DNA of 21,586 nucleotides, taken from positions 1-21,586 of the IMG/VR virus record IMGVR_UViG_3300033146_003135, one strand, 5' to 3'. Below the pieces are notes generated by a model, which saw only the letters and a list, made by a program, of their open reading frames with translations, did no database searches and had not been told where the DNA came from. This document shows, piece after piece, positions 2,116-10,461 of this stretch. The position numbers and the translations under genes were made by a program. Source of the stretch: a virus. The number at the start of each line of letters is the position of its first letter. Position 1 is the stretch's first letter.

Positions 2116-5100
2116 ATGAAATTTGTAAATACACATAGATTTTCACCAGTTGCCACAAAGGTAGATATGCCTTTTGAGACTGATTTATTTTATCATGATG
2201 TTAATGATATTCCAGATAATGAAAAACAATTAAAAACCTTTCTTAAAGATAATGGAATAGTTAATGATAAAGAATGGTGGTATGAACAATATAGGAGAGT
2301 ACAAGAAGGCTTTATAATAGAAGATGCAATAGTAAAGGGGGGTAATGCTATTGTTGATGGCAGAGATGCTATATGGAATGAAACAACAAAGCCGATGGAG
2401 TTTTATAATGATAATTTTGATATTCCTATTATTATTCCTCCAGAAACAGTATATCTTAATGATGTTGATATATTTGCTCCACAAGGAAGTTTAGCTATAA
2501 CAGGAAGACATTATTTTTATCTTAATTTTTTTAAGATGTATAATGATGATCCAGAAACAGGAAGAAAAGATATTTTACCTCCAGATTTTACTGATTTAGA
2601 TTATTTAAAATTTGGAAGAATAAGATTACAAGAAAGATGGGGTAAAGATAATACTGAACTTAAAGCACGTCAATTAGGTTATTCAAAAAGTAGTGCTGGA
2701 GGAATATTAGGATATAATTATTTATTCGTAAGAGCTTCTAATAATGTTATAGTAGCAGGTAATGATGAAGATGCAGATGAACTTTTTGCTACAGCAGTAG
2801 ATGGAATAGAATTAGTAAAAAACACTCAATTTTATAAAGCATTTAGTATAAATAGTAAAACAAAACATAGATTAGTTGCTAAATATTATAAGAGTAGAAT
2901 AACAGCATATACAGCAGGGTCAGGCAATGATCAAGTATTATCTAGACTTGTACCTTATTGGGTTGTTTATGAAGAGGTAGGTAAATGGGCTAAAGGGCTT
3001 GTTGAATCTGTTAGAATGTTTGTTGAACCATCTATAGTCACAAAAGGAAGACGTTATGGATATCAGACATTTATTGGTTGTGTATGTAAAGGAACTAAAG
3101 TTTATCAAAATGATGGAAGTAAAGTAAATATAGAGTCATTAGAAAAACTTAATGGCATAATAGGATATTCATCTGAAGGATATTTTAAAGATAAAGTGAT
3201 AAATTATAATCCTCCACAAAAAAAACAATGTTTTAGAATTAAGACAAGATATGGTAGAGAAATTGAATGTAGTTTTGACCATCCATTTTTTATGACATCT
3301 AAAAATATATTTTATGCTAAAAGAGAAATGATTAATGGAAAAAGAAAGAATATTAAAAGGATGAAGCGTTTAATATGGAAAGAAGCTAAAGATTTACAAG
3401 TTGGAGATTATTTAACATTAAGTAGTCTTTCTGGAATGTTTGGTAATAAATCTATGTGGAATCCTAGAGTAGTTGGACAATTAATAGGAGATGGTAGTTA
3501 TGGATTTAATAAAACTCCTGTTATTTCTAATTGTGATGCAGGGGTATTAGATTATATTGAAAATAATTTTGAAACAGTTGTTGAAAAAGAATATACAACT
3601 AAAGATAATAGACAATATAAAGAAATACGGATAAAGGGTATTACAAAACAATTAAGAGAACTTGGAATATATGGTCAAACAAAATCAAAAAAAAGATTAC
3701 CTATAGATATTAATAAATATAATGAAAATTCAATAAAAGAATTAATAGGTGGATTATATGATACAGATGGAAGTGTAAGTATTAATATTTTGCCAGGAGG
3801 CGTTAGGAGTTTTACTATAAATATTTCTCAATTAAGTAAAGAATTATTAATAGAGGTTCAGAGTATATTATTGAAATTTGATATTAATTCTAGTTTAGAT
3901 AAAGTAAAACCTGATTTAAGGGACCGAAAAATAAGAGGGACTAAATCTTTTTGGATTTTAAGAATAGCAAATAGTAATGGACTTATAAATTTTGCAAAAA
4001 ATATTAAATTAACTGTTAAATATAAACAGGATATTTTAAATTATATATTAAAAAATGTTGAATATAAAAAAGCATTATTTAATTTTCCTGTAGAGGTTTT
4101 TTCTAAAAATAAAAGAAAAGTAGATTTAGTAATACATTCTAAAATTTTATATGATACTATTATTGAAATAGAAGATATAGGAATGCAAGATGTTTATAAT
4201 CTTACTACAGAATTATCACATACTTATTTAGCTAATGATTTTATAACTCATAACACAGGGGGTGACATGGAACTTGCGGCAGATGATATGGAAAAGATGC
4301 ATTATTCTACAGATTCAGACACTTTCTTAAGATTTAAAAATAAATTTGAAAGAGGAGCTACTTCTGTTGAAAAGTCAGGGTGGTTTTCTTCTAAAGCGTG
4401 GTTCTCTGTTGTAGATAAGGATGGTAATAGTGATTTGGTCAAAGGAGCTAAATATGTTTTAGCATTAATAGAAAAAGAAAAAGATGCTGTAAAAAAACAC
4501 ATTAAAATAACACAATGGGCTTTATATGCACAAGATGCTTTTATGATGTCTTCTGCTGGTTTTTTTGGAGAAACTAAAATTAATTTACTTAATAAAAGAT
4601 TATCTGAAATAAAACTTCATAAAGAATTGCAAGTAGAACGTCATGGAATACTACAATGGAAAAATCAGAATAAACCTTTTGATGGAGTTGAATTTATAGA
4701 GACTAATGAAAGCGAATCTTTTATTACAATAACAGAGGAACCAATATTAGATGCAAATGGTAATGTTTATAGAAGTCTTTATGAAATAGGTATTGATAGT
4801 TATGATCAAGACGAAAGTCAAACATCTACATCTATGGGAGCATTAACAATAAGAAAAACATTTTTAGATAATTCAACTACATACAATACAGATATTGCAT
4901 TACTTTTGGAGAGACCTAATACAGCTCATGGAGGAAAGAATAAATTTTATGAACATTGTGCAATGGCTGGTGTATGGTGTGGTAATGTTGAAATGATGAT
5001 TGAACATACTAAAGTATTAATTATAGAATGGTTATTAAACAATGGTTTTGGTAATTTAATAGCATTACGTCCTCAGATGGCATTTGCTGCACAATTAAAT

Positions 5101-5415
5101 AAATCTAAAGCAATGAATAAGTATGGAATAGATGGGAGTATGAAGCCTAATGTAATGGCTATTATGTCTAATGATTTAACTCCAGAGTTTATTAATAATA
5201 TGTTCATAACAAAACAAATAAAAGCGTTTATTCGATATAAATATTCACGTAATTATAATTGTGATATAACAGTATCTTCTGCTCATGCAGCAGTAGCAGC
5301 TAAAGAACATGAGAAACGAGTAGCATATTCTACTACAGATAAAAGAAATAAGAGTACAAAACATCATTTTTATTACAAGCAAACACCAAACGGATTAATT
5401 CAGGTATTTGCATAG
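2116..5415 (+). CDS. terL: Terminase large subunit with in-frame intein
   Basis: The 1099-residue precursor is a 707-residue TerL carrying a 392-residue intein. TerL is the ATP-driven motor and nuclease that packages phage DNA through the portal. The N-terminal ATPase shows a Walker A of the T4-like RQLG type (KARQLGYSKSS, residues 183-193; G188, K191, S192). Its Walker B is an hhhhEE variant (PYWVVYEEVGKW, 280-291; E286, E287). The coupling motif FIG/TGGD is split by the intein after residue 321. The C-terminal RNase H-like nuclease shows the first acid in EIGIDSYD (D894), a candidate second acid in MMIEHTK (E963) and a third in NCDITVSSAHAA (D1050), all in precursor numbering. The ATG at 2116 lies 3 bases after the upstream stop, and the gene ends with TAG. 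The portal follows 11 bases later, the usual order. The extein looks intact, so splicing should yield an active enzyme. Confidence 0.95.
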   Translation: MKFVNTHRFSPVATKVDMPFETDLFYHDVNDIPDNEKQLKTFLKDNGIVNDKEWWYEQYRRVQEGFIIEDAIVKGGNAIVDGRDAIWNETTKPMEFYNDNFDIPIIIPPETVYLNDVDIFAPQGSLAITGRHYFYLNFFKMYNDDPETGRKDILPPDFTDLDYLKFGRIRLQERWGKDNTELKARQLGYSKSSAGGILGYNYLFVRASNNVIVAGNDEDADELFATAVDGIELVKNTQFYKAFSINSKTKHRLVAKYYKSRITAYTAGSGNDQVLSRLVPYWVVYEEVGKWAKGLVESVRMFVEPSIVTKGRRYGYQTFIGCVCKGTKVYQNDGSKVNIESLEKLNGIIGYSSEGYFKDKVINYNPPQKKQCFRIKTRYGREIECSFDHPFFMTSKNIFYAKREMINGKRKNIKRMKRLIWKEAKDLQVGDYLTLSSLSGMFGNKSMWNPRVVGQLIGDGSYGFNKTPVISNCDAGVLDYIENNFETVVEKEYTTKDNRQYKEIRIKGITKQLRELGIYGQTKSKKRLPIDINKYNENSIKELIGGLYDTDGSVSINILPGGVRSFTINISQLSKELLIEVQSILLKFDINSSLDKVKPDLRDRKIRGTKSFWILRIANSNGLINFAKNIKLTVKYKQDILNYILKNVEYKKALFNFPVEVFSKNKRKVDLVIHSKILYDTIIEIEDIGMQDVYNLTTELSHTYLANDFITHNTGGDMELAADDMEKMHYSTDSDTFLRFKNKFERGATSVEKSGWFSSKAWFSVVDKDGNSDLVKGAKYVLALIEKEKDAVKKHIKITQWALYAQDAFMMSSAGFFGETKINLLNKRLSEIKLHKELQVERHGILQWKNQNKPFDGVEFIETNESESFITITEEPILDANGNVYRSLYEIGIDSYDQDESQTSTSMGALTIRKTFLDNSTTYNTDIALLLERPNTAHGGKNKFYEHCAMAGVWCGNVEMMIEHTKVLIIEWLLNNGFGNLIALRPQMAFAAQLNKSKAMNKYGIDGSMKPNVMAIMSNDLTPEFINNMFITKQIKAFIRYKYSRNYNCDITVSSAHAAVAAKEHEKRVAYSTTDKRNKSTKHHFYYKQTPNGLIQVFA
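3079..4254 (+). other. Intein with LAGLIDADG homing endonuclease domain, inserted in TerL coupling motif
   Basis: Residues 322-713 of the TerL precursor (392 residues) form a class-1-type intein. It opens with Cys322 in CVCKGTKVY (Hint block A). Block B is ECSFDHPFF with His389. The C-terminal splicing region is VYNLTTELSHTYLAND, then FITHN with penultimate His712 and Asn713. The +1 extein residue is Thr714. Between the splicing halves lie two dodecapeptide motifs of a LAGLIDADG endonuclease: VVGQLIGDGSY (D459) and LIGGLYDTDGSV (D551), about 90 residues apart, both keeping their acidic residue. Both splicing and homing functions therefore look intact. Removal restores a continuous YQTFIG-TGGDMELAADD motif, and the boundaries are read from this junction. 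The first of the two nearby cysteines is chosen as residue 1 because block A normally has C, three residues, then GT. Base composition resembles the host gene, which argues against very recent arrival from an unrelated genome. Confidence 0.95.
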
Positions 5416-5426
5416 ATTAAATCAAT

Positions 5427-7985
5427 ATGAAAGATAAAAAGACTGATTGGATAAAAGGCATAGCTAAAAGCATAACCGAAAATAATTCTGTAAAGAATAA
5501 AGAAGAAATATCTTATTGGAAAAGATATAATTATGATTTTGAAGAAAGATTTGCTTATTTAACAAAAATAGGAAAGTTTTCATTACCAACACAAGATAGA
5601 CATATTCCATTACAAAGGAAATATATTAATTTACTTGTATCAAAGAAAACAATACGTCCTTTTAAATATTCTGTATTTATTGATAGTGATGAAGTAAGAA
5701 AACAAAAATATGATTTAAAAGTTAGGGAGTTTGTTTCTTTTGCTATTGGGAATACTAAGATTGCTTCATTTAATTTAGAAAAACAAATAAGAGAAATTGA
5801 TAGTAAAATACAAAAGGTATATAGAGCTATACAACAACAACAGATAGCCCCAGAAGATACAGCGCAAGCTGAAGAAATGATAAGTCAATTACAATTCTAT
5901 AAAGAATTATTGAATGAAGAGAATATATTAGGCAAACAAATATTAGACCAATATAGGGCAGAGCAACATATGTCTCCAACAGAAGTGTTGGAAAAACTCA
6001 CAACAAGATATCTTAGAACATTAGAAAAGAAAATGAATTTTGTTAGTATAACTACTAATCAATTTAAACATAAACTTGTTACAGGTAAATATGCTTTTTT
6101 AGTAGCTCAATTTAATGAAAATTCAGAACCTATTATAAAGAGTATAGATGCTTCTAGAGTAGTATATGATACATCAGGAAGTGAGGATTCAATCAATAAA
6201 AAAGATTGGGTAATGTATAATGAAAAAATGTCTTTTGGTCAAGTAAAAGAAGGATTTGGCATGCAAATAATAGAGGAGTATGGTGTTGATGCAATGCAAA
6301 GTTTAGAAGAAACTTATTCAACAGGTGATAATTCTCATGATATGTATGCTCTACCAAGTGGAGGGGTTATTTTTGGAAATGAAATAATGAATAATAATTA
6401 TGGAGATACTAATTCTATTTCTGTAAAATGGGTATGGTTTAGAGCTAGTACCCCTGTTTATAGAAGAGTTTCTGTAGGTAAAAATAATTATATCCATAAA
6501 CATATATTACCAAGTAAGGATATTATTAATACTGATGAATATCATTATAGAAAAGGAATTTACGTTCATAAAAAGAATAAAGATAAAAAATATAAGAAAA
6601 GTGAAATTAATACATATTCGAAAAAATCTGGAGATAAATTAGAAAAAAGAGATTTATTTAAAGTTTATCATGCAGTAATAATAAATGATGAATACATAGT
6701 AAATGCAAGTGAATGGAAAAATATAGTTAGGGGTTCTGATAATTATAATAGAATTAATCTTCCAATATTTGGTCCAGCATTTGATTCTGTAATAAATAGA
6801 CCTTATTCATTAATTAAAGAAACTAATGATATTCAAGATTTAATAGATGTTGTTAATATTTCAAGAGAATATATGATAGCAGCAGCAGGTACAAAAACAA
6901 ATGTAATAGATGTATCTCAGAAGCCAGATTATATGAAAGAAGATGAATGGGAATTGAATATTAAATTAGGTCGTATTTATATTCAAACAGTAGATTCAAA
7001 TGGAGTTCCTAAACATATTTCTTTTAATCAATGGCAAAGTTTTGATAATTCAATATCATCAGGTGTTCAATATTATACTCAAATAATAGATAGTTTATCT
7101 TATTTAATGGGAAATATAATAGGTATATCATATCAATCTTTAGGACAAACTGTAAGAACAGATCAAGTAGGAACAACACAAGAAGCTATTCAACAATCAG
7201 AAGTTGTTACAGAGATTTTATTTTATGAATCAGCTCAAACAGAAAAAGAAGTTTTAGAGGAGTATTTAAATCTAAAAATACGAAATGCTAATGGTTCCGA
7301 TTTAGTTTTTACAGAAGAAAATCTTAATAGTAATAATCAAGAAATTTTAAAAACAAGTAAAATAGGGTTGAACAGATTGGCTATTAATTTATATTCTTAT
7401 GGAGAAGATTATAGAAAAATACAAGAATTAAAGCAACTTGCTATGCAAATGAAGCAAGAATTACAATTATCTTTAGGAAGTATTATAAGAATATTTAATG
7501 CTGACACTCTTAAAGAAATGGAAGCTAAGATTGATTATTTTGAGAATCAAGCAAGAAAAGCAGCTTCTGAACAAGCAAGAGCAGCACAAGAACAAGAAAT
7601 GCAAACTTTTAAAGAAACTGAAAAATACAAAAATGATTTAGAAGTTTACTTAGAACAAGTAAAGCAAAAGTTTGAAAGTGCAAAATATCAATTGGATCAA
7701 ATTAAATTAAATCAGGAACAACAAAGAGATTTGTTTGATCAGAAAGCTAAAATGATAGAATTGTCATTGCAAAAAGAAGCAAATAAGATTGATTTGTATA
7801 AAATTAAAGAAGATACTATTGTTGAAAAAGATATGTTATTATTAGATGATAAGCATAAGACAATAGATGAGCAAATAAGGCTATTAGAGCTGCAATTAGA
7901 AGAGAAATTAGGAAATATGAAGATTAGGGTTGATGCTAAAAAAGCACAGCCTGGAGCAGTTAATAATCATATAAACGATAATTAA
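5427..7985 (+). CDS. Portal protein
   Basis: This 852-residue protein starts 11 bases after terL, the standard position of the portal, which forms the dodecameric DNA channel at one capsid vertex. Its length fits the unusually long portals of crAss-like phages. The core includes a wing-like region (SKKTIRPFKYSVFIDSDE) and a helical hairpin (about residues 112-180, rich in Q and E). A stem/clip-like central part contains NRPYSLIKETNDIQDLIDVVNISRE and SYLMGNIIGISYQSLGQTVRTDQVGTTQEA, the latter typical of portal crown or stem segments. From about residue 690 to 840 there is a long Gln/Glu/Lys-rich coiled coil, probably a barrel or crown extension into the head. No Walker or catalytic motif is present, as expected. 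The assignment rests on synteny, length and architecture. No other gene in the window fits the role. Confidence 0.85.
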   Translation: MKDKKTDWIKGIAKSITENNSVKNKEEISYWKRYNYDFEERFAYLTKIGKFSLPTQDRHIPLQRKYINLLVSKKTIRPFKYSVFIDSDEVRKQKYDLKVREFVSFAIGNTKIASFNLEKQIREIDSKIQKVYRAIQQQQIAPEDTAQAEEMISQLQFYKELLNEENILGKQILDQYRAEQHMSPTEVLEKLTTRYLRTLEKKMNFVSITTNQFKHKLVTGKYAFLVAQFNENSEPIIKSIDASRVVYDTSGSEDSINKKDWVMYNEKMSFGQVKEGFGMQIIEEYGVDAMQSLEETYSTGDNSHDMYALPSGGVIFGNEIMNNNYGDTNSISVKWVWFRASTPVYRRVSVGKNNYIHKHILPSKDIINTDEYHYRKGIYVHKKNKDKKYKKSEINTYSKKSGDKLEKRDLFKVYHAVIINDEYIVNASEWKNIVRGSDNYNRINLPIFGPAFDSVINRPYSLIKETNDIQDLIDVVNISREYMIAAAGTKTNVIDVSQKPDYMKEDEWELNIKLGRIYIQTVDSNGVPKHISFNQWQSFDNSISSGVQYYTQIIDSLSYLMGNIIGISYQSLGQTVRTDQVGTTQEAIQQSEVVTEILFYESAQTEKEVLEEYLNLKIRNANGSDLVFTEENLNSNNQEILKTSKIGLNRLAINLYSYGEDYRKIQELKQLAMQMKQELQLSLGSIIRIFNADTLKEMEAKIDYFENQARKAASEQARAAQEQEMQTFKETEKYKNDLEVYLEQVKQKFESAKYQLDQIKLNQEQQRDLFDQKAKMIELSLQKEANKIDLYKIKEDTIVEKDMLLLDDKHKTIDEQIRLLELQLEEKLGNMKIRVDAKKAQPGAVNNHINDN

Positions 7986-9018: not shown

Positions 9019-10461
9019 ATGAAAATAATGCGTGGTGGCGTTATTGAGATCGCCCAAGAATCTATATCAGATAGTATGTTATTTAAGGCAGGAATAGAGA
9101 ATCCTGATTATATTCCAACTATCATGAGGACTTATAGAGATAGTTCTCCTTTAAATTATATCCTTGATATTAAGGGTATGAAAACTTCAAATCTTAATTT
9201 TGGAACGAATAATCATCGTTTCCGTACAGTAGGTAGTAATCACGTTAAATATCGTTTAGATGAAGATGATTTAATTATCAGACATATTAAGTCAAATCAT
9301 TTAGGAGTTACTTACGAATGTGATATGTACCCTGATAAGCCAGGATATAAACAAAGTACAGTAGTATTTTATTCAGATAGCAATTGGGATGGTTTCCAAG
9401 AAGTTATTGAGATGAATGATAATGATACTTATTTATATAACTTGCTTGATCCAGAAGAGATTGGAGATGGTGTATGGAAGCATACAGTTAAGTTAGTAAG
9501 TAATGATCCTGAAGAATGGATTGATTTATCAGTATTTGATGAAGGAGCAGAATATATCGTAAGATATAATATGCATGAACAAGACTTCTCTGAGAGAGGT
9601 GTTGAGAAATATTCTTTCAAAGGATGGGCTGATGGTTATTTAACTCTTCAAAGATTCAAATACTCTATTTCTGGTACTGCAAAAGCAAAACTTAAGAATG
9701 GCAAAGTTAGAGCTTATGTTGTAGAGAATAATGGAGAGAAAGCATTTTTGTTAGAAGCTGAACATCTTATGATGAAGAGAGCTACAGAACAATTGAATGC
9801 TCAATATATTTATGGTAAAACTACTGTTTCTGTTGATACAGGAAAGCCAATTCTTACAAATGCAAAAGGTAGAAATATCTTAGCAGGTAATGGTATTGTA
9901 TTTGGCAATGGTGGTCCTGTTCATATTCCATTTAATGGTTGGACTATTAAATTTTTAGATTGGTTGATTGCAATGATTGACGAATATGTATCTGCTGGAA
10001 ATGATGGACATCAAGAAGTAGTTATGTTAATGGCACCAGCTTCTTATTCTTCTTTTAATTCTTTAATGAGAAGTAAGGGGTTGACTCAAAATTCTAATAT
10101 TACTGGAGAAGGAGCTGAAAAAGGAATTATCGATACTTACAAATTTTATGAATTGGGTGGTATTCGATTAATTGCAATGAAAGAACCAACAATGCGTAAG
10201 AGACCTCGTAAATTAGAATTAGATGGTACATATGCAAATGATTGGGATACAGTATTAGTTCCATTAGGATTAACCGAAGGAGGTAATAACGGTGTAGAAT
10301 TAATGCAACTTAGACCAGCTTCTAAAGGTACTGTAGCAGGTATTGATGAAGGAGGTAATATAGCATCATCTGTAGATGGTAGCTCTACTCACATTCTATT
10401 TCAGAATGGTATTATAAGCCAAAATAAAATCTTTATGTTAAGGAAACCAACTTTAATATAA
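9019..10461 (+). CDS. Major capsid protein (HK97-fold, crAss-like)
   Basis: The 480-residue protein has the size and position of the crAss-type HK97-fold major capsid protein, which forms the icosahedral shell. The N-terminal arm includes SISDSMLFKAGIENPDYIPTIM. A beta-rich region (about residues 99-245, containing STVVFYSDSNWDGFQEVIEM and YSFKGWADGYLTLQRF) resembles the insertion domain seen in this family. It is followed by a spine-helix-like segment (HLMMKRATEQLNAQYIYG, about 246-263), a long helix (WTIKFLDWLIAMIDEYVSA) and a C-terminal beta part ending NKIFMLRKPTLI. The ATG at 9019 gives MKIMRGG; the ATG at 9028 is an alternative start. Arg codon CGT and Phe codon TTC are noticeably more frequent here than in neighbouring genes, which fits high expression. 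A GC-rich hairpin follows the stop. Confidence 0.88.
   Translation: MKIMRGGVIEIAQESISDSMLFKAGIENPDYIPTIMRTYRDSSPLNYILDIKGMKTSNLNFGTNNHRFRTVGSNHVKYRLDEDDLIIRHIKSNHLGVTYECDMYPDKPGYKQSTVVFYSDSNWDGFQEVIEMNDNDTYLYNLLDPEEIGDGVWKHTVKLVSNDPEEWIDLSVFDEGAEYIVRYNMHEQDFSERGVEKYSFKGWADGYLTLQRFKYSISGTAKAKLKNGKVRAYVVENNGEKAFLLEAEHLMMKRATEQLNAQYIYGKTTVSVDTGKPILTNAKGRNILAGNGIVFGNGGPVHIPFNGWTIKFLDWLIAMIDEYVSAGNDGHQEVVMLMAPASYSSFNSLMRSKGLTQNSNITGEGAEKGIIDTYKFYELGGIRLIAMKEPTMRKRPRKLELDGTYANDWDTVLVPLGLTEGGNNGVELMQLRPASKGTVAGIDEGGNIASSVDGSSTHILFQNGIISQNKIFMLRKPTLI

Follow-up and report, generated by a model that had tools for sequence, protein, structure and literature searches.

A probable mobile class 1 intein in the predicted ATPase coupling motif of a crAss-like phage terminase

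As judged from sequence and structure models, a mobile intein of class 1 that carries a LAGLIDADG homing endonuclease very probably occupies the coupling motif of the terminase large subunit (TerL) of a distant crAss-like phage, and we infer splicing and cutting by this particular copy. The gene was found in a 21,586-nucleotide stretch of viral DNA (hereafter the window) as an open reading frame of 1,099 aa with zero internal stops (2116-5415), in which the intein takes up 392 codons (3079-4254, residues 322-713) with the junctions FIG/Cys...His-Asn/TGGD. Its computed excision leaves a TerL of 707 aa, and the exteins match the TerL family phrog_6681 (E 1.8e-32). A first-pass annotation had proposed a complete 392-residue intein at this place, and its boundaries proved exact to the base, profile matches and the gapless alignment of an intein-free homologue (L115) being in agreement. 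The features of the gene are as follows.

2116-3078, + strand: TerL N-extein, residues 1-321, comprising the ATPase domain as far as the strand of the coupling motif (phrog_6681; alignment to intein-free L115)
2662-2685, + strand: Walker A region, deviant KARQLGYS, residues 183-190 (hhalign to T4 gp17 SRQLGKTT)
2956-2976, + strand: Walker B YWVVYEE, residues 281-287 (hhalign to gp17 MIYIDE; strand in the L115 model)
3070-3078, + strand: predicted coupling motif, first half FIG (end of strand 315-321 in the L115 model; G invariant in alignment A3)
3079-4254, + strand: class 1 intein with LAGLIDADG endonuclease, 392 residues, Cys1...His391-Asn392 (profiles, residues, structure match)
3271-3282, + strand: splicing block B SFDH, S386 and H389 (S/T and H invariant in 48 related inteins)
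3490-3492, + strand: first LAGLIDADG acid D459 (invariant in 48 of 48)
3766-3768, + strand: second LAGLIDADG acid D551, with D549 beside it (D551 invariant in 48 of 48)
4249-4254, + strand: intein C-terminus His712-Asn713 (TIGR01443; invariant in related inteins)
4255-4266, + strand: predicted coupling motif, second half TGGD, with the +1 residue Thr714 (alignments with intein-free TerLs)
4255-5415, + strand: TerL C-extein, residues 714-1099, end of the ATPase and RNase H-like nuclease (phrog_6681 match at 713-1009; 3c6a fold match)

Evidence for an intact intein and endonuclease

The product of the TerL frame is matched above cut-off by splicing and endonuclease profiles, namely Pfam Intein_splicing (50.8 bits, cut-off 35.8) and LAGLIDADG_3 (41.5 bits, cut-off 22.5), and by the NCBIfam models intein_Nterm (32.8, cut-off 24.5), whose match begins at residue 322, and intein_Cterm (18.4, cut-off 15.6), whose match ends at residue 714. 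The class 1 nucleophile Cys1 (Cys322) stands at the N-terminal boundary, as in 48 of 48 related inteins; block B follows the Thr/Ser-x-x-His pattern as S386-F-D-H389; the C-terminal H712-N713 is followed by T714, one of the Ser/Thr/Cys residues expected there; and two LAGLIDADG motifs are present with their acidic residues D459 and D551. All the residues named in the first-pass annotation (Cys1, His389, the HN end, Thr +1, D459 and D551) are as it had them. The intein has Asn in block F where many inteins have Asp, and Ser in block B where most have Thr; since both are (nearly) fixed across the family, they are probably tolerated.

A HINT fold was recovered from the structure model of the precursor, in which approximately residues 320-713 match crystal structures of endonuclease-bearing inteins, 7qsu among them (Z 26.6, rmsd 4.2, 318 aligned); the match to 1mi8 has Z 21.3 and rmsd 1.6 over 136 aligned residues. 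The G+C content of the intein is 23.6%, as against 30% in the exteins, which suits a foreign origin and proves nothing.

Phage identity

The crAss-like host proposed at first reading was borne out by tail ring 2 and muzzle proteins above the Pfam cut-off of 27 (CrAss_Ring_2 34.9, crAss_MUZ 36.3) and by the portal match.

5427-7985, + strand: portal gene (phrog_6547; crAss-like portals)
9019-10461, + strand: major capsid protein gene (Crass_capsid 26.9 bits, just under the cut-off of 27)

Its sequence assigns the host to a distant crAss-like lineage because its TerL is far from those of named phages (about 25% identity at best), and the lineage can be called divergent because tblastn with the major capsid protein found nothing among 50,697 phage records and its Crass_capsid match falls just below cut-off. 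The window holds nothing that would show a gut origin. Phage records gave no megablast match to the window, and in the TerL tree the window falls, on a long branch, outside a 100/100 clade of six Suoliviridae-like rows.

Insertion site within the packaging motor

The closest known TerL, L115, is an intein-free protein recovered by scanning viral contigs with the TerL alignment, and is 62% identical to the exteins of the window over its full length. It reads FQYFIGTGGDME where the window has YQTFIG/intein/TGGDME, so that the junction FIGTGGDME is gapless, and the TerLs of the intein-free crAss-like phages cr55_1, cr50_1 and cr109_1 also align continuously across this point. Because L115 has no intein, the element was gained or lost since the two TerLs split. 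Scans of viral contigs for close relatives with the C-extein alone or the intein alone gave no match, and alignments were needed. Of 80 loci in the TerL scan, which ranks uninterrupted genes first, only two showed any similarity to inteins, and that weak; the intein scan finds carriers only and the TerL scan favours uninterrupted genes, so neither gives the prevalence of the intein.

The L115 structure model (mean pLDDT 77) has the ASCE ATPase and RNase H-like nuclease of a T4 gp17-like TerL, matching 2o0j for the gp17 ATPase (Z 20.3, rmsd 3.4, 256 aligned) and 3c6a for the RB49 nuclease (Z 18.4, rmsd 2.7, 187 aligned); by hmmsearch the TerL profile found nothing in the PDB, though the fold search matched well. 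Residues 814-1068 of the precursor model likewise match the RB49 gp17 nuclease 3c6a (Z 18.8, rmsd 2.9, 186 aligned); this model is of low confidence (pTM 0.40) and was excluded as evidence on extein structure.

In the L115 model the Walker B strand spans 281-285 and the following strand, 315-321, ends in GTGGD, which is invariant in TerL alignment A3; G-T-G-G is invariant in A4 (18 sequences). The residue-level hhalign alignment with T4 gp17 took in only Walker A and Walker B and ended before the coupling motif, so it is strand order, spacing and conservation that place the insertion point in the predicted coupling motif. The gp17 coupling motif is one which we take to be TTT 285-287, the letters at those positions being confirmed. 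The first-pass reading that the intein splits FIG/TGGD in this motif agrees with strand order and conservation; its description of the site as just after Walker B was loose, as the insertion lies 35 residues past Glu287 (the distance is 29 in gp17), beyond a further helix and strand.

The TerL P-loop of the window (2662-2685) is deviant, with KARQLGYS in place of GKT/S, and resembles a form found in lambda-type terminases; K183, R185 and G188 of this region are invariant in alignments A3 and A4.

Related inteins and their spread

Relatives of the intein are encoded in 95 viral-contig stretches and 23 genome-contig loci, as found with a profile of five related inteins; the search required an endonuclease motif and hides dead or mini inteins, and because it favoured intact endonucleases the absence of decayed copies is uninformative. 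The 48 distinct inteins examined (window included) sit at three TerL sites or in the TerL of L005, and all 48 keep Cys1, the Ser/Thr and His of block B, the two endonuclease Asp residues and His-Asn. The +1 residue is Thr in 44 and Ser in 4, and the -1 residue is Gly in 46 and Ala in 2. The three insertion points, always between Gly and Thr/Ser, are:

Site a, G/TGG: the site of the window
Site b, GTGG/T, 9 bp downstream of site a: L029, L032, L034, L038, L042, L043 and L044
Site c, GTGGxxG/S, 18 bp downstream of site a: L003, L035, L039 and L050

For relatives with measurable dS, the HINT half and the endonuclease half each have a dN/dS well below 1, the window's copy having no close relative. 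One carrier, L092 (JAGAKD010000106.1), a crAss-like TerL with this intein on a Lachnospiraceae MAG contig from water deer cecum, is probably a mis-binned phage contig. Several TerL genes appear to hold more than one intein: apparently three each in L024 (coupling motif and two nuclease motifs), L046 (Walker A, coupling motif and nuclease motif) and L064, and apparently two in several others. In-frame TAG occurs in TerL and intein in L012, L016, L022, L023, L030, L037, L039, L050 and L052, and in-frame TGA instead of TAG in L045 and L058; the intein family is common to recoded and standard-code phages.

The inteins have a history different from that of their carrier genes. For the window, the intein was more similar than TerL in 44 of 44 comparisons, and for the twelve best matches to its intein, identity is 41-45% between inteins and 15-25% between TerLs; across the family the same holds for 879 of 990 pairs. 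Insertion sites are scattered on the TerL tree (13 changes, versus 13.6 for shuffled labels), and close-sister TerLs differ: L012 has site a, cr53_1 site c, and cr109_1 is intein-free. The TerLs of L023 (site a) and L050 (site c) are 83% identical, whereas their inteins are 37% identical. Horizontal homing is supported because intein and TerL trees disagree strongly and the catalytic residues are kept in 48 of 48 copies; the comparisons show that the family has spread between TerLs horizontally, as independent homing predicts, in line with the capacity for spread that the first-pass annotation had raised.

On the intein tree, insertion sites cluster. Site b forms one clade (100/99), apparently nested among site-a inteins (starred on the tree), which suggests a shifted insertion point; a tree in which the core site-a inteins stay separate is, however, not rejected by the AU test (p 0.138). 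A related intein also occurs at A/TGGT in L005:6004-7071 (MT835482.1, human faecal phage), whose TerL belongs to phrog_5909 and shows no similarity to that of the window (E 6.9). The L005 intein is of the site-a type, grouping with L019, L025, L026 and L048 (99/98), and its insertion lies about nine residues before that protein's own coupling motif (placed by eye, with NHFWYE as anchor against gp17 NHFYD). We tentatively propose, as plausible though not favoured, that one intein lineage moved its insertion point within the coupling motif, before each Thr/Ser that follows Gly in GTGGTEGS, and jumped to an unrelated TerL family at the look-alike A/TGGT. If true, endonuclease target and splice point can be uncoupled, and a single lineage of inteins would take over all positions of a motif that are compatible with splicing. 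A literature search on intein sliding found no paper, most subscription journals being outside its reach.

Proposed mechanism and alternatives

Under the proposed mechanism the whole 1,099-aa precursor would be translated, Cys322 would attack the bond to Gly321 and the chain would pass to Thr714; Asn713 would then cyclise with the help of His389 and His712, and the exteins would ligate as FIG-TGGD into the 707-aa TerL. The endonuclease would cut intein-free terL at the conserved GTGG(D/T) codons, for which L115 is a candidate target, and during co-infection repair would copy the intein into the cut gene. Residence in a catalytic loop with little freedom to vary would make imprecise loss of the intein lethal and targets common. 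From the position of the insertion, the unspliced precursor likely makes no working motor, a conclusion drawn earlier for mycobacteriophage terminases (PMC5050341).

An intein that still splices, with a dead endonuclease and inheritance that is now vertical, is an unlikely alternative for the window's copy. It would fit the fact that this copy has no close relatives from which recent mobility could be read, its best intein match being about 45% identical, but both catalytic Asp residues are kept, the closest known TerL is free of the intein, and trees are incongruent family-wide.

Considerably less probable is a regulated switch, in which a late or environmental cue to splicing would time DNA packaging; timing of packaging had been raised in the first-pass annotation. 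In its favour, the insertion splits the coupling motif, the motif strand is absent from the low-confidence precursor model (301-321, pLDDT <50) and formed in the intein-free model, and pentamers have been argued to be unlikely with inteins in place (Kelley 2016, PMC5050341). However, packaging does not need the intein, since the intein-free relatives L115, cr55_1, cr50_1 and cr109_1 exist; the scattered distribution fits a parasite; and the timing idea is further weakened because the mycobacteriophage TerL inteins that were tested splice with ease, and for four of five of them no precursor was readily visible. Regulation of packaging by splicing is thus speculation with little support.

A reading of the 392 residues as a native domain of TerL, as their being in frame and stop-free might allow, is refuted by L115, which has no gap at the junction at 62% identity, and contradicted by the intein profiles and structure match, so that the check for homologues with such a domain, proposed at first reading, came out in favour of an intein.

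Comparison with known systems

Inteins at this place in TerL and in crAss-like TerLs are already known, as the first-pass annotation acknowledged for the class (Yutin et al. 2021, PMC7886860; Kelley et al. 2016, PMC5050341). In Delta crAss-like phages "TerL typically contains an intein", and one TerL has two (PMC7886860). These Delta (Suoliviridae) inteins, for example that of cr53_1 (Blohavirus), have gene, phage order and intein family in common with the window, whose intein is 33% identical to that of cr53_1; the latter lies six residues further on (GTGGDEG/Ser), and the window's TerL, on its long branch, falls outside the supported Suoliviridae clade of the TerL tree. Closer in position are Dulem virus 42 and 41 (lemur faeces), with the same site G/TGG(T/S) and inteins 43% and 39% identical to the window's; their TerL exteins are about 20-25% identical, and Dulem virus 42, unlike the window, reads TAG as an amino acid.

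Mycobacteriophage terminases have seven intein insertion sites, one of them in the putative coupling motif; splicing was shown for five of the inteins and endonuclease activity for two, and splicing was argued to precede motor assembly (Kelley et al. 2016, PMC5050341). The TerL6-f inteins share the putative coupling (C) motif insertion with the window, with splicing shown for Chandler gp6 (PMC5050341), whereas TerL family and hosts differ. The endonuclease-bearing PI-SceI and TliVMA inteins share the HINT and LAGLIDADG architecture (Z 22.6-26.6), with a VMA ATPase as host protein instead of TerL and sequence identity of about 20%.

To these systems the window adds a divergent crAss-like phage with an intein-bearing terminase and the matched intein-free allele L115. 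The intein family offers a clear case of movement between terminases independent of the carrier genes, and an example, open to test, of how an insertion point within a catalytic motif shifts in steps of whole codons. Annotators are also warned to expect that one to three inteins may interrupt a crAss-like TerL gene.
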